Source: Arthrobacter sp. SLBN-112
GTDB lineage: Bacteria; Actinomycetota; Actinomycetes; Actinomycetales; Micrococcaceae
Direction: 5' to 3'
Length of the DNA: 64,000 nt
Assembly: GCF_030944625.1 (NCBI RefSeq)
Contig: NZ_JAUSXY010000001.1
Coordinates: forward strand, 1,860,001-1,924,000
The position numbers were made by a program, and so were the translations under genes. Position 1 is the stretch's first letter, and each line of letters starts with the position of its first letter. A model generated the notes under the pieces. The model saw only the letters and a program-made list of their open reading frames with translations. It searched no databases and was not told where the DNA came from. Positions 1,045 through 6,167 of this stretch are shown one piece after another.

Positions 1045-1413
1045 CCCGGTTTCCTTTCCTCGTGGCTACGTTCAACCGATTGACGCAAACCCCCATCTTT
1101 GATGCGTACCCACATTTCCGCCGCTCACCTGCATTTCCGCTGCTCAAACCCGCCGGCGACGCACACCCGCATTGCCGATACGCAAATTCATCAGCGACGC
1201 TCACCCGCATTTCCGCCGCGCAAATTCCCTGACGCGCACTGAATATTTGTCGCGTTAATGCACCTGCGGGTCGAAGGGTAATCTGCGCGTCGCCAGTGCG
1301 CACCCAGATCTGTGCCGCAGTCTTCGCAAAACTGCTAATCATGCTTACTATTGTGGGGCGCGGGCTGCCCGCTGGGGGCAGAGCACCCGCGCCGCACCGG
1401 AGGTCTCTCAAGC
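1045..1413. other. Long intergenic spacer with degenerate repeats
   Basis: Divergent spacer between the exchanger and the repeat-protein operon. No convincing gene was found; a minus-strand open frame here has no family signature or ribosome binding site. It contains short AT-rich patches (CAAATT, AATATT, GTTAAT) spaced through GCG/CGC-rich sequence, including the 38-bp tandem units listed separately. Promoters for both flanking genes should lie here, but I could not assign boxes with confidence. Confidence 0.6.
1153..1228. repeat. Two tandem degenerate 38-bp units
   Basis: Positions 1153-1190 and 1191-1228 are adjacent 38-bp copies sharing a GCGACGC block, an ACCCGCATT block and a GCAAATTC block in the same order and spacing. 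Further, more degenerate half-units containing CATTTCCGC lie just to the left, from about 1108 to 1145. The units do not code for anything visible. Function unknown; they could be a protein-binding array or remnants of a dispersed intergenic repeat. Confidence 0.6.
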
Positions 1414-2094
1414 ATGGACAACGAAATGCGTCCCCTCACCGATGAAGAACTGATGTCGGAGCAGGCCACAGCCCTGCCGGACAAGGAAGTGGCATCCGTC
1501 CTGGACCTGAATGCGGACCTGGACCTGGGCATCAACGCAGCGGCTCCCATTGACCTGGCCGTCGCCGCCAACGCGAACGTGGCGGCCCCCATCGACGCGG
1601 CGGCCTCCGCCAACATCCTCTCCTTCGGCTCTGACGCGCAAGCACTCTCGCACCAGGACGCTGCGATTGACCAGGGCATCGTGGCCGACGCCAACGCCAA
1701 CTCCGCCCAGGACAGCGTGATCGGCCAGGGCGATGGCAGCACCGGCACCACCGACACAGGCACGGGTACCACCGGCACCACGGATGGAGCCACCGGAACA
1801 GCACCGGCCCCCACGAGCACCGGTGGCGTCACGGATGCAGCGGGCGCGCTGAACGGCAACCTGTTGAACGTGGACGTGAACCTGGACGCCGACGCCGCCA
1901 TCGCCGCACCGATCAACGGTGCCGTGGCCGCGAACGCCAACGTTGCCGCCCCCATCGACGCAGCCGTGGCCGCGAACATCGGCTCCATCGACAGCCAGTC
2001 CTACGCCATCTCGGACCAGAGCGCCACCATTTCGCAGCACATCGACGGCGCCGCGGACGCCACCGCCGGCCAGCAGTCCAACCTGCAGCAGTAA
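1414..2094 (+). CDS. Repetitive Ala/Asn/Asp-rich protein with leader-like N-terminus; possible substrate of the downstream M50 protein
   Basis: A 226-residue protein without cysteine, membrane segment or classical signal peptide. The N-terminus (LTDEELMSEQ, then ALPDKEVASVLDLN) resembles a cleavable leader. Two related blocks follow: residues about 40-70 and about 160-190 both carry variants of NVAAPIDAAVAANI. Each block is followed by an S/Q/D/I-rich stretch such as SDQSATISQHIDG. A TG-rich linker lies between the blocks. The start ATG has GGAGG about 10 nt upstream. The stop is 6 nt before the next gene, which encodes a PqqD/M50 membrane protein, so the two are almost certainly co-transcribed. 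I recall similar actinomycete proteins labelled only as hypothetical. That it is a modified or proteolysed peptide precursor is inference. Confidence 0.75.
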   Translation: MDNEMRPLTDEELMSEQATALPDKEVASVLDLNADLDLGINAAAPIDLAVAANANVAAPIDAAASANILSFGSDAQALSHQDAAIDQGIVADANANSAQDSVIGQGDGSTGTTDTGTGTTGTTDGATGTAPAPTSTGGVTDAAGALNGNLLNVDVNLDADAAIAAPINGAVAANANVAAPIDAAVAANIGSIDSQSYAISDQSATISQHIDGAADATAGQQSNLQQ

Positions 2095-2100
2095 GCCAAG

Positions 2101-4569
2101 ATGACCCAAACCCACGGCGGGCCGCCTCCCGAGGCGGGCCCGCCGTCGTCACGCGCCACTTTCGCCCAGGAGCCGCCGGGCCACGGAATTACGACGCCGG
2201 GCGCCCACCTTCCAGCCCGGGCCGACGGCGTGCAGCTGCTTGGCACGGCGGAGGGCTCCGGCTACCGGGAGCCGCCCGCCCTGGTGCGCCGCAGCGACGG
2301 CCAGACCCTCCAGCTCACCCGGTTGCTGTACCTGGTGCTGGAAGCGGCGGACGGGACGCGGGACCTTGAAGGAATCGCCCGGCATGCCAGTGAGGGGTCC
2401 GGGCGGCTGGTCAGCGCGGAGAACGTCCGCACCCTGATGGACTCGCAGCTGTTGCCGATGGGTCTCCTCCGGCTTGCGGACGGCACCCAGCCCGAGGTCA
2501 AAAAGTCGAACCCGCTGCTGGGCCTGCGGTTCCGCTACATCGTGACGGATCCCGAGCGCACCCGCAGGATCACCGCCCCGTTCGCCGTCCTGTTCAACCC
2601 GCTGATCGTGATGGCTGTAACGGCGGCGTTCCTGGCGGCCTGCTGGTGGGTGCTCATGGTCAAGGGCCTGGGCTCGGCCACCCACGAGGCGTTTGCCCAG
2701 CCCGCCCTCCTGCTGCTGATCCTCGCCGTCACCATCCTGTCGGCCGGCTTCCACGAATTCGGCCACGCGGCGGCCACCCGCAAGGGCGGTGCAACCCCCG
2801 GAGCCATGGGCGCCGGGCTGTACCTCTTGTGGCCGGCGTTCTTCACCGACGTCACGGACTCCTACCGGCTGGGCCGCGGCGGCAGGATCCGCACCGACCT
2901 CGGCGGCCTGTACTTCAACGCGATCGTGGCGGTGGCCATCATGGCCCTGTGGTGGGCCACCGGCTTCGACGCGCTGCTGCTGGTGGTGGTCACCCAGATC
3001 CTGCAGATGGTCCGCCAGCTGATCCCGCTGGTGAAGTACGACGGTTACCACATCCTGGCGGATGCTACCGGTGTGCCCGACCTCTTCCAGCGCATCAAAC
3101 CCACCCTCCTGGGGATCCTGCCGTGGCGGTGGGGAAACCCGGAAAGCAAGGTGCTCAAGCCCTGGGCGCGCGCCGTCGTCACTGCCTGGGTCCTGGTCAC
3201 CGTGCCGGTGCTGCTCTTCAGCATGGTGATGATGGTGCTGTCCCTGCCGCGGCTGCTGGCTACGGGATGGGCCAGCGCCGGCAAGCAGCAGGAACAGCTC
3301 GCTGCGAGCCTGTCCGCCGGGGACTTCCTGGGCGCTGCGGTGCGGGCGCTGGCCATCCTGGTGGTGGCGGTGCCGGTGCTGGGCGTGCTGTACATCGTGG
3401 CCCGGCTGCTGCGGCAGCTGGTGACTGGCCTGTGGCAGAAGACCCGCGGCAAGCTGGTCCAGCGGACCGTCGCCATGGCGGCCGTGGCGGTCCTGCTTGC
3501 CGGGCTGGCCTGGGCGTGGTGGCCCGACGGCGGGACGTATCGTCCGGTGCAGGCGTACGAACGTGGGACGCTGGGCGACGCCACCCGGGCCATCCTTCCC
3601 GTTCGCGACGACGGGGCGTTGCGGCAGGGCGGTGCTGGACGGACCGTTGCGTTGTGGCCTGCCGGAGCCGCCAAGCCCACGCGGGACAACCCGCAGCTGA
3701 GCATGGTGCTGGTACCCGTTGCCGCATCCTCGCCCAGTTCAACTTCCAGCGCTGCTTCCGGCGGGGCCACTCCCGCGTCCGCACCGTCCTGGGTCTTCCC
3801 GTTCGACCGGCCCGCAGCGCCGGCCGCCGACGGAAACCAGGCGCTCGCCGTCAACACCACCGACGGCTCCGTGGCCTACAGTGTGGCGTTCGCGCTGGTG
3901 TGGGCCGAGGACGGGGATCCCGTGACCAGCACCAACGAGGCCTACGCGTTCGCCAACTGCACCGGGTGCGCGGCGGTGGCCGTCGGGTTCCAGGTCGTTT
4001 TGGTGGTGGGCCAGGCCGATGTCATTGTGCCGCAGAACCTCTCCGCGGCTGCCAACTACAACTGCCTGGACTGCCTGACCTATGCGCTGGCGAGCCAGTT
4101 GGTCCTCACTCTCGACGGTCCGCTGGATGCGGCCGGCAAGCAGCAACTCGAGGCCTTGTGGGCGCAGATCGCGGAGTATGGGCGGCATATCCAGGACGTG
4201 CCGCTCTCTGAGATTCAGGCGACGCTGTCCGGATACAAGGAGCAGATCACTGCCATCGTCAAGGGGAATTCCGTAGCCGGAGGGACCTCGGTGGCAACAT
4301 CCCCGGCCACCGCGGGAACGAGCGGTGGCCCGACTCCGGGTTCCACCACCTCAGCGGTGCCGGGCGGCCCGACTGCAGTTCCCGCGACGGCACCTGGCGA
4401 AACCTTCGCACCTGCCCCGGCAGGAGCCGGGGCGGCCACGGCACCGGCGGGCCAGTATGGGGAAGGCGGGCAGCCGACGTCGTCCGTTGACTATGCGACG
4501 CCGGCACCCACCGCTGATTCCGGGTTTGGCTCCACTCCTGTTCCGGCGCCCACCTCCAGCGCCGGCTGA
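2101..4569 (+). CDS. PqqD-like domain / M50-type zinc metalloprotease membrane protein with exported CxxC domain
   Basis: An 822-residue protein. Residues about 55-130 look like a PqqD-type winged-helix, the fold used to bind peptide leaders in RiPP systems. The membrane core carries HEFGH at residues 218-222 within a hydrophobic helix and KYDGYH with Asp314, matching the HExxH and distal Asp of site-2-protease-like M50 enzymes (YydH type). About seven to eight membrane segments end near residue 475. The exported part contains paired cysteines CTGC (620-623) and CLDC (655-658), suited to zinc binding or disulfides, then a Ser/Thr/Pro/Ala-rich tail. It follows the repetitive protein by 6 nt. 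Likely role: intramembrane processing or export of that neighbour. The domain assignments are good; the substrate is inference. Confidence 0.8.
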   Translation: MTQTHGGPPPEAGPPSSRATFAQEPPGHGITTPGAHLPARADGVQLLGTAEGSGYREPPALVRRSDGQTLQLTRLLYLVLEAADGTRDLEGIARHASEGSGRLVSAENVRTLMDSQLLPMGLLRLADGTQPEVKKSNPLLGLRFRYIVTDPERTRRITAPFAVLFNPLIVMAVTAAFLAACWWVLMVKGLGSATHEAFAQPALLLLILAVTILSAGFHEFGHAAATRKGGATPGAMGAGLYLLWPAFFTDVTDSYRLGRGGRIRTDLGGLYFNAIVAVAIMALWWATGFDALLLVVVTQILQMVRQLIPLVKYDGYHILADATGVPDLFQRIKPTLLGILPWRWGNPESKVLKPWARAVVTAWVLVTVPVLLFSMVMMVLSLPRLLATGWASAGKQQEQLAASLSAGDFLGAAVRALAILVVAVPVLGVLYIVARLLRQLVTGLWQKTRGKLVQRTVAMAAVAVLLAGLAWAWWPDGGTYRPVQAYERGTLGDATRAILPVRDDGALRQGGAGRTVALWPAGAAKPTRDNPQLSMVLVPVAASSPSSTSSAASGGATPASAPSWVFPFDRPAAPAADGNQALAVNTTDGSVAYSVAFALVWAEDGDPVTSTNEAYAFANCTGCAAVAVGFQVVLVVGQADVIVPQNLSAAANYNCLDCLTYALASQLVLTLDGPLDAAGKQQLEALWAQIAEYGRHIQDVPLSEIQATLSGYKEQITAIVKGNSVAGGTSVATSPATAGTSGGPTPGSTTSAVPGGPTAVPATAPGETFAPAPAGAGAATAPAGQYGEGGQPTSSVDYATPAPTADSGFGSTPVPAPTSSAG

Positions 4570-4588: not shown

Positions 4589-5854
4589 TCAGCAGGCCTT
4601 GGGTGGCCCTGCGGGAGTGGATGCCTCCGCCATCCGCCAGATGGTTCCATCCCAGGACATCTTGTAACGGAGTCCCCAGTCTGAACACGTTTGGCCCCCT
4701 GGGCCGTCGGCGGCGGACTGTTCCGTGCGGAGGACGGTATCTACCGTCAGCTGGTTGCCGGAACCGCTGATGCTGTTGACGGTCAGGGCGCGCCAGAAGG
4801 ATGTTCCCAGCCCGGAGCTCCACTTGGCCAGTCCGCCCTCGCTGTTCTGCAGCTCCGGGGTCAGGACCGCAAACGCGGTGTCGTAGGCGGCCCGGTTGAT
4901 CGCCTGGCCATGGGTGAGCAGGCTTTGGATGACTTTGGCTGCCTGCTCGTGGTCCGAATGGTTGGTGGTGATGATATTGCTGCTGGACGTTTGCGCCTGG
5001 TTGTCGCAGCTTGCCTGCGGCAGCGGCGTGGTGCGGCGCCCCCAATCTGAAAGTGCCGCTTCTGCCGACGGTGCCGGAGCGGCGTAACCCACGCCTTCGG
5101 CGCCGTAATCATTCTGGTCATGTGTGCCCAGGACCCACGCCCGTTTGGAACTGACCACGCCCACAACGCTGCCGTCCATGAGGAGCAGCGGGCCGCCGCT
5201 GTTGCCCGGGTTGATGGCCGTGTCCGTCTGGATCAGGCCGCCGACTGTCCCGGCGGGAAGGTTGACCTCCTGGTTGAGGGCGCTGACCCGTCCTGAGGTA
5301 AAGGCGAGGCCCCGGTCCAAGGGGAAACCGAGTGCTGCCACTTCAACACCCTGTGCGGGAAGGTCCCGGGCGAAGCTGAACCTGAACCCCGTGAGTGCGG
5401 TCGGTGTCCGCAGCAGGGCCAGGTCAAGGTTGTCGTTGATGCCCAGGACTGTCGCCGATGTGTATTGGCCGCCCATGGATACATTGATGGCTGCCTCATT
5501 CTTGGCCACGTGGGCCGCCGTCATGATGAGATCGGGTCCCACCAGGAAGCCCGTGCCCACCCCGCCGCCGTCGCATAGCGTTACGGCAAGGCGCGCCACC
5601 CCTGAATGGACCAGCTCAACAGTTTCCGCCCAGTCCCTGGGGGGTGCGGCACCCGGGGCATGCGAGGGAGACGATGAGGGCGTGGCAACGGGCGTTGGCG
5701 CGGCAGGGGAAGCCGAGGGGGAGGAGGACGGCGGGGGAGCAGAGGGTGGGGACGAGTTGCCCGGGGATGCCTGGGGCGGCAGGCAGGCCGTGGCCAACAG
5801 CAGGACGGCCAGCGACGGAGCAAAGCGGATAATCCGGTGGGCGGCTGTGAACAT
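4589..5854 (-). CDS. Trypsin-like (S1C/HtrA-type) serine protease lipoprotein
   Basis: A 421-residue secreted protease anchored as a lipoprotein: the signal peptide ends in a lipobox LATAC with Cys24. A Pro/Ser-rich linker (about 29-72) leads to a trypsin-like domain with His115 (TAAHV), Asp144 (NDNLDLALL) and Ser219 (NPGNSGGPLL), so the triad is intact. There is no PDZ domain. Instead a C-terminal domain of about 110 residues with two cysteines follows, resembling a small NTF2- or lipoprotein-like fold. The ATG start is preceded by GGAAGG 7 nt upstream; an upstream in-frame TTG lacks a site. It converges with the M50 gene at 20 nt. It could act in envelope quality control or in processing exported proteins; its substrate is unknown. 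Confidence 0.88.
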   Translation of the reverse strand: MFTAAHRIIRFAPSLAVLLLATACLPPQASPGNSSPPSAPPPSSSPSASPAAPTPVATPSSSPSHAPGAAPPRDWAETVELVHSGVARLAVTLCDGGGVGTGFLVGPDLIMTAAHVAKNEAAINVSMGGQYTSATVLGINDNLDLALLRTPTALTGFRFSFARDLPAQGVEVAALGFPLDRGLAFTSGRVSALNQEVNLPAGTVGGLIQTDTAINPGNSGGPLLLMDGSVVGVVSSKRAWVLGTHDQNDYGAEGVGYAAPAPSAEAALSDWGRRTTPLPQASCDNQAQTSSSNIITTNHSDHEQAAKVIQSLLTHGQAINRAAYDTAFAVLTPELQNSEGGLAKWSSGLGTSFWRALTVNSISGSGNQLTVDTVLRTEQSAADGPGGQTCSDWGLRYKMSWDGTIWRMAEASTPAGPPKAC

Positions 5855-6167
5855 CGGGCTTCCTTCCCCCAAGGTGGTCCCTGTCCAGCCCCCAGATACC
5901 GGTCCAGTAGGCTCACGCTAGCCACGGCAGGACCGGGCCACAAGCACATCAACTACCTAATCTGGCCCGGATGCTACCCCTATCGGCGGGATGTCCTGCG
6001 GAACCGGCCCAGTTGTCGTGGGCTGCGGTCAATGTGACGCGCGCCCGAACCTATTCTTGTTTCGCTGGGCAGGATAGCGAATCATATGCAGTGGCGGTGT
6101 TATTGCCTTGCTGGGAAGGACCCTTGGACTTTGTGGGGGGCACCGCAAAAGGGGCTGGCTCCTGGTC
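5855..6167. other. Intergenic spacer upstream of the protease gene
   Basis: Lies between the end of the GH15 gene and the start of the protease gene, both on the minus strand. It must hold the protease promoter and probably the terminator of the sugar-oxidation operon. I found no strong hairpin with a T-run and no small gene with a credible ribosome binding site. Confidence 0.5.

Follow-up and report, generated by a model that had tools for sequence, protein, structure and literature searches.

A conserved gene pair of a leader-bearing repeat protein and a putative RRE-guided M50 membrane protease in Arthrobacter and its relatives

The question raised by this locus is whether a small repeat protein is made for the membrane protease encoded directly behind it. 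The two genes, here named A and B, lie in a stretch of 64,000 nucleotides (nt) of Arthrobacter sp. SLBN-112 (contig NZ_JAUSXY010000001.1, positions 1,860,001 to 1,924,000), the whole of which is called the window. An earlier note, made from the sequence alone, had proposed that A is recognised by its leader and cut or exported by B. The A/B unit is real, conserved and widely distributed, and lies outside all curated families tested. We find it probable that A is a precursor and B its dedicated processing protease, which would bind A through a recognition element (RRE) of the kind known from ribosomally synthesised and post-translationally modified peptides (RiPPs), cleave it at an M50 site and meet it at the cell surface with an exported domain carrying CxxC motifs. 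The pair is rated as a new form of RRE-guided M50 peptide maturation.

The cysteine-free protein of 226 amino acids (aa) described earlier, encoded 6 nt before an 822-aa protein, was borne out by the open reading frame coordinates and the composition. Gene A has the following features.

1399..1403, plus strand: GGAGG, ribosome-binding-like site of gene A, 10 nt before the ATG, as read in the sequence
1414..2094, plus strand: gene A, leader-bearing repeat protein of 226 aa, the putative substrate
1447..1491, plus strand: leader recognition motif, residues 12-26, E-L-x-x-E-x4-L-P-x-K-E-V
1501..1731, plus strand: core unit 1, residues ~30-106, from the internal repeat and the match to a single-core peptide profile
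1732..1863, plus strand: low-complexity G/T/P/A linker, residues ~107-150, of varying length among homologues
1864..2091, plus strand: core unit 2, residues ~151-226

The protein is Ala/Asp-rich and strongly acidic (net charge −28); composition and hydropathy revealed no signal-peptide-like segment and hydropathy no membrane segment. Its two related blocks form a real internal repeat with a local score of 163, against a mean of 49 and a maximum of 90 in 1000 shuffles, and are, judged by their sequence, a true duplication. Core unit 1 has three strands in a predicted model of low confidence, and Pfam and NCBIfam scans of A matched 0 families. FapC was the sole Foldseek match (E 6.1) and was rejected as evidence of a structural relative. 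Upstream of gene A, at 1082-1224, lie three degenerate direct repeats of the CACCCGCATTTCCGCC type with 38-nt spacing and 61-72% identity; promoter and terminator scans gave nothing beyond chance.

The supposed partnership of the two genes is reflected in their distribution. Among 149 genomes of the family, A and full-length B were present in the same nine, and independent occurrence was not seen. By coordinates the genes are adjacent and on one strand in all nine (the neighbourhoods of eight were viewed), and the home genome has a single copy of each. Pseudarthrobacter chlorophenolicus A6 is among the strains that carry both. Both are absent from the other 140 genomes, 10 of which carry a divergent relative of B that matches it at 36-42% over residues ~10-485 and ends before the exported part. 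Beside 2-4 peptides of 63-71 aa with ELLPxRET-like leaders, the loci of these divergent relatives encode three further proteins: a separate one of ~250 aa with 2-3 CxxC, a regulator, also of ~250 aa, and one of ~80 aa; in genome G096 these companion genes sit on another contig. The leader-peptide clusters L033-L040 are of this split kind, with an RRE-M50 protease and a separate CxxC protein. Four leader peptides scanned from them matched no Pfam or NCBIfam model, and the regulator of L040, the sole one scanned, has a BTAD domain.

Beyond the family, relatives of B were found in 64 of 394 genomes of the class (alignment search, E ≤ 1e-20; the weakest may be daptide-type), in 24 of 296 genomes of the phylum (E ≤ 1e-25) and at 324 places in GTDB contigs, the best 80 of which include Arthrobacter, Sinomonas, Nocardioides, Phycicoccus, Agromyces and mycobacteria. 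Loci were taken from the window, 14 of 20 fetched, these best 80 of the 324 GTDB places and 40 of 72 class match places, and their genes were called by a simple gene caller of our own, not taken from annotation. The loci gave 138 M50 matches, of which 134 scored at least 300 bits and, less two duplicates, made up 132 units weighted heavily to Arthrobacter and Pseudarthrobacter; the other four matches, three daptide-type and one fragment, were excluded. L202, whose M50 gene was missed by the gene caller, stands outside the 132. A held-out set from other classes comprised 20 of 22 match places, G768 and G690:C6 being left out.

The leader-like N-terminus that the earlier note had seen in A proved to be a motif that the partners of this protease clade, otherwise unlike one another, have in common, with the consensus [ED]-[LI]-x-x-[EQ]-x4-L-P-x-[RK]. 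LPx[RK] served to select genes; positions −9, −8 and −5 did not. In A itself, an alignment of 52 sequences shows no variation at L21, P22, K24, E25 or V26, and the motif recurs in the other precursor types. An LPx[RK] gene was found by rule within four genes, in a same-strand run, in 127 of the 132 units, against 33 of 703 genes further away. Inspection left 126 of these 127 and added L137 and L177, read in other frames, giving 128 true units. The known chance genes caught by the rule are L180 (+2), L096_3, L107_1, L110_2 and L162_0. In the four remaining units, L148 and L156 have core parts only, and L133 and L180 have only 108 and 1 bases upstream. The held-out loci had LPx[RK] within five genes in 18 of 20 cases (background 1 of 66). 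In 16 of these it lies immediately upstream and is codirectional, and in two it is on the opposite strand; of the exceptions, L237 has a variant without Pro and L234 has none.

All ten pairings of the leader profiles of types i to v matched with E no worse than 9e-4, though with low probabilities for i-v (24%) and i-iv (53%), and the cores aligned well only between types i and iii and weakly between iii and iv. Across the aligned precursors, then, the leaders are common and the cores mostly not, as would be expected if the protease reads the leader. The profile of type iii, peptides of ~70 aa with a single core, matched 98 of 101 listed type i proteins, each in at least two places; the list holds three chance genes, presumably the three unmatched. 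A may therefore be described as one leader followed by two cores. The idea of A as a repeat-protein substrate thus keeps its leader and its pairing and loses its single odd protein, A being instead a two-core fusion in a large family of leader peptides. Relatives with a split unit have single-core peptides of ~70 aa and a separate signal-peptide protein that matches the CxxC domain of B. A tree of the M50 proteins (63 rows) grouped the types by clade, with the exception of one long-branch row (L194), placed type i beside type iii with a support of 91/93, which is under the starred level, and split these types from three daptide-type M50s at 100/100.

Other kinds of core behind the same leader were seen in L194, L238, L239, L240 and L242-L246. 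Short hydrophobic cores with LGIPxxG occur in L238, L239 and L246, cores with VPxG[IV]AANxC in L242-L244, and a 112-aa form in L194.

The features of gene B outside its exported repeat domain are as follows.

2101..4569, plus strand: gene B, 822 aa, an RRE-M50 membrane protease to which the exported CxxC domain is fused
2200..2484, plus strand: RRE, residues 34-128, from the structure model
2599..3519, plus strand: membrane region, residues 167-473, seven helices as read in the model
2752..2766, plus strand: HEFGH zinc-protease motif, residues 218-222
3040..3048, plus strand: D314-G-Y, second metal-ligand motif, invariant
4276..4566, plus strand: Pro/Thr/Ser/Ala-rich disordered tail, residues 726-822, with a predicted local distance difference test (pLDDT) mostly below 50

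The N-terminal domain of B was modelled with strands at residues 45-49, 60-63 and 69-72 and helices at 74-82, 89-100 and 106-117 (pLDDT of the block at least 90), and upon re-alignment of candidates it matches leader-binding RREs in structure, leader binding itself being predicted. The PqqD-like fold suggested earlier is thus supported by the model, with an extent of 34-128 that begins slightly before the 55-130 first given. The membrane helices hold HExxH and a distal Asp in a site-2 protease fold, by the predicted model and structural re-alignment. The protease core read as HEFGH and D314 was confirmed at residues 218-222 and 314: an alignment of 61 shows no variation at H218, E219, G221 or D314 and at least 90% conservation of H222, and a second one, of 10, likewise retains HExxH and the Asp ligand. 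Of the seven to eight helices counted earlier, seven stood and the eighth did not; hydropathy gave six segments, one of which the model resolves into two helices.

Pfam and NCBIfam sequence searches give neither A nor B a name. The Pfam scan of B returned no match at E ≤ 1, PqqD (PF05402) and Peptidase_M50 included, and a PDB sequence search, run for B only, does not name it either. Foldseek with the whole model of B gave nothing significant, and re-alignment of its candidates was informative. The closest profile to B is the daptide peptidase model NF041824 (E 2.6e-31, 109.1 bits, cut-off 300); the YydH/LiaK model NF058609 gave 33.8 bits with a cut-off of 225.

The catalytic residues bear on the idea that B, bound to the leader, would keep A in place or translocate it uncut, the M50 site serving another substrate. 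A cleavage site cannot be read from the sequences and A has no signal peptide, both of which would suit non-proteolytic export or anchoring; against it, both alignments retain HExxH and the Asp ligand and almost every unit has leader peptides as its partners, and we hold it to be very improbable.

The exported part of B raises the second half of the question, namely what the processed protein would meet outside.

3808..4125, plus strand: exported repeat domain, residues 570-675, about three units of ~30 residues
3958..3969, plus strand: CTGC, residues 620-623, in one of the last two repeat units
4063..4074, plus strand: CLDC, residues 655-658, in one of the last two repeat units

Both CxxC motifs reported earlier are present, and all four Cys are at least 90% conserved in the alignment of 61. 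Export of this domain, also claimed before, agrees with its separate-gene relatives, 19 of 22 of which are signal-peptide-like by a simple rule. The domain is fused to the protease in 105 of the 132 units, was found solely as a separate gene in 16 and was not found in 11. In L174 and L175 the M50 protein scores for a fused CxxC domain, a separate CxxC gene lies directly downstream and the peptides are ELLPxRET-like; these loci may stand midway between the split form and the fused one.

Its exported Cys pairs and predicted site-2 protease fold would also allow B to be a membrane sensor in regulated intramembrane proteolysis, the CxxC motifs sensing redox or wall state and A being a regulator freed from the membrane. 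A, however, has neither a membrane segment by hydropathy nor a Pfam or NCBIfam domain, its place is taken in relatives by small leader peptides, often in 2-4 copies, as is unlikely for a regulator, and the exported domain can be a gene of its own, which together make such a sensor a distinctly unlikely explanation.

The exported domain resembles the cores in its repeat, N-x-A-x-A-x-x-x-C-x-x-C-x-x-x-A-x-x-x-Q-x-V. Core profiles rank it among the best non-precursor matches, at low scores; the top 50 held it 19, 18 and 30 times for types ii, iii and iv, where 4.0, 4.6 and 6.7 were expected. Comparison of core with CxxC profiles was in register for the pairs that beat shuffled columns (200 shuffles each), the shuffles reaching the real score numbering 0 for type ii with the separate form, 1 for iii-separate, 0 for iii-fused and 0 for iv-separate. 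A profile of 12 peptides, with no type i member, was searched against the whole home genome at E ≤ 10 and gave four matches: unit 1 of A (E 0.0037), residues 570-597 of B (E 0.71), a place outside the A/B unit (E 0.80) and unit 2 of A (E 1.27). The separate CxxC gene in G104 was found at E 5.3e-4. Only 24 of 118 exported domains matched the core of their own type best, and type-specific pairing was not found. A common repeat of ~28 residues in cores and exported domain is likely, and moderately supported by these comparisons, and the exported CxxC domain appears to be a second component, elsewhere a separate gene, related to the substrate's own repeat. BasB, a bindosome protein, came up as a match to one CxxC protein at E 0.02 and was dropped as chance; the literature around it, in the portions available, is mostly on archaeal surface structures.

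The processing of A by B may be depicted as follows: the RRE at the N-terminus of B, on the cytosolic side, would bind A by its leader, E-L-x-x-E-x4-L-P-x-[RK]-E; cleavage of A near the boundary of leader and core would follow at the intramembrane M50 site, and the beta-rich double core would reach the cell exterior. With no signal peptide on A and no prominent transporter nearby, its passage across the membrane would fall to B itself or to a general route. Outside, the core would meet the exported domain of B, whose CxxC pairs may be disulfides and whose disordered tail would be of a wall-spanning type. This domain would be built of the same ~28-residue N-x-A-x-A-x-N ... A-x3-Q repeat as the cores, and so it may hold, cap or template their assembly on the surface. 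Leader binding, cleavage site and export route are what we infer for A and B, and assembly of the cores on the surface is a tentative addition. Slightly more tentative still is a phylum-wide surface assembly in which RRE-M50 proteins trim leader-tagged beta-repeat cores and pass them to an exported CxxC template of the same repeat; the fused B would then recognise, cut, export and nucleate, as a minimal curli analogue made from RiPP parts.

Several observations weigh against the processing of A by B as drawn here. The fold of the N-terminal domain of B is not exclusive to RREs. The LP shared by the leaders inflates their matches by construction, LPx[RK] having been used for selection. Taken into account, these two points leave the odds given here materially as they are. 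Shuffled columns were not beaten in the core and CxxC comparisons for ii-fused (12), iv-fused (25), v-separate (90) and v-fused (175), of 200 each.

A different reading would place A among the antimicrobial or signalling RiPPs, in a system like those of daptides or epipeptides, the RRE-M50 protein removing the leader and tailoring, immunity and export being encoded elsewhere. The daptide peptidase model is indeed the closest profile to B, and type ii relatives have 2-4 small precursors beside a regulator gene (BTAD in L040). B is nonetheless under the curated cut-offs (109 of 300 for daptide, 34 of 225 for YydH/LiaK), and among the 22 largest neighbour clusters, named by reading their first residues, no tailoring or immunity family was noticed and no transporter stood out; an ABC-ATPase-like cluster occurs in 12 of 132 loci, spread across the types. 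The cores of A are moreover strongly conserved between genera, unlike those of typical bacteriocins. M50 or RRE-M50 peptidases, MpaP and EpeP, do work in such pathways, as far as the accessible parts of the reports tell (PMC10036551, PMC10885120). On balance a RiPP of this kind is unlikely, and A as the precursor of a dedicated protease is preferred.

The remaining neighbours were as follows. In 36 of 132 loci a gene that reads as a prolyl oligopeptidase recurs two or three positions upstream; it and the acetate kinase-like and Pta-like genes downstream were found at type i loci only and were set aside as likely chromosomal synteny; in the window none of them is beside A and B. A trypsin/HtrA-type serine protease (4589-5872, minus strand) is convergent with gene B and is not among the commonest neighbours. 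The M50 loci L041, L042 and L043, with ABC-type genes by reading and peptides of 41-53 aa, are daptide clusters in genomes of the same genus; the peptides of L042 and L043, the two scanned, match daptide precursor models.

Should the processing of A by B hold, RRE-guided processing, known from small natural products, would also serve larger structural or surface proteins, and many actinobacterial genes named 'peptidoglycan-binding' or 'hypothetical' would gain a substrate, an enzyme and a third component. More precursors could be sought with the leader motif, and the split and fused forms are a way into how an intramembrane protease delivers its cut product outside. A role in surface assembly, if shown, would be categorically new. 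No earlier description or name for the A/B pair was found in the literature searched, in which subscription journals are thinly covered, so that a prior account may exist; the portions seen of RRE-Finder (PMC7470986), a later daptide paper (PMC12670281) and PMC12710340 hold no LPx[RK] recognition motif.

Among known systems, the nearest NCBIfam model is that of the daptide protease MpaP, which like B joins an RRE to an M50 membrane protease and is encoded next to small precursors; in daptide biosynthesis it removes the leader in an RRE-dependent manner, according to the accessible part of the report (PMC10036551). B differs by a score far under the equivalog cut-off, another leader motif and the extra exported CxxC domain. 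No decarboxylase, aminotransferase or methyltransferase gene was recognised, by reading, beside A and B in the window, and the daptide precursor models NF041805-8 matched neither A nor any of eight small relatives scanned, which like A gave 0 families. For EpeP, a double part in cleavage and export of its peptide is proposed, as the available part of the source has it (PMC10885120). EpeP, YydH and LiaK share with B the M50 metalloprotease; B is far under the YydH/LiaK cut-off and has an N-terminal RRE and an exported domain. Epipeptide operons hold a radical SAM epimerase, which was not seen beside A and B. SpoIVFB and other site-2 proteases have the fold and metal ligands of B, and SpoIVFB uses a CBS domain instead of an RRE. 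SpoIVFB also handles a soluble pro-protein (pro-sigmaK, complex 8vjm), a transcription factor unlike the putative substrate of B. From curli (CsgA/CsgB), A is set apart by giving no curlin Pfam match (E ≤ 1) and by having no signal peptide; on cross-beta fibres there is a beta model of low confidence. The likeness to curli is in logic only: a Q/N-rich repeat and a second component possibly with the same repeat, as CsgB carries the repeat of CsgA.
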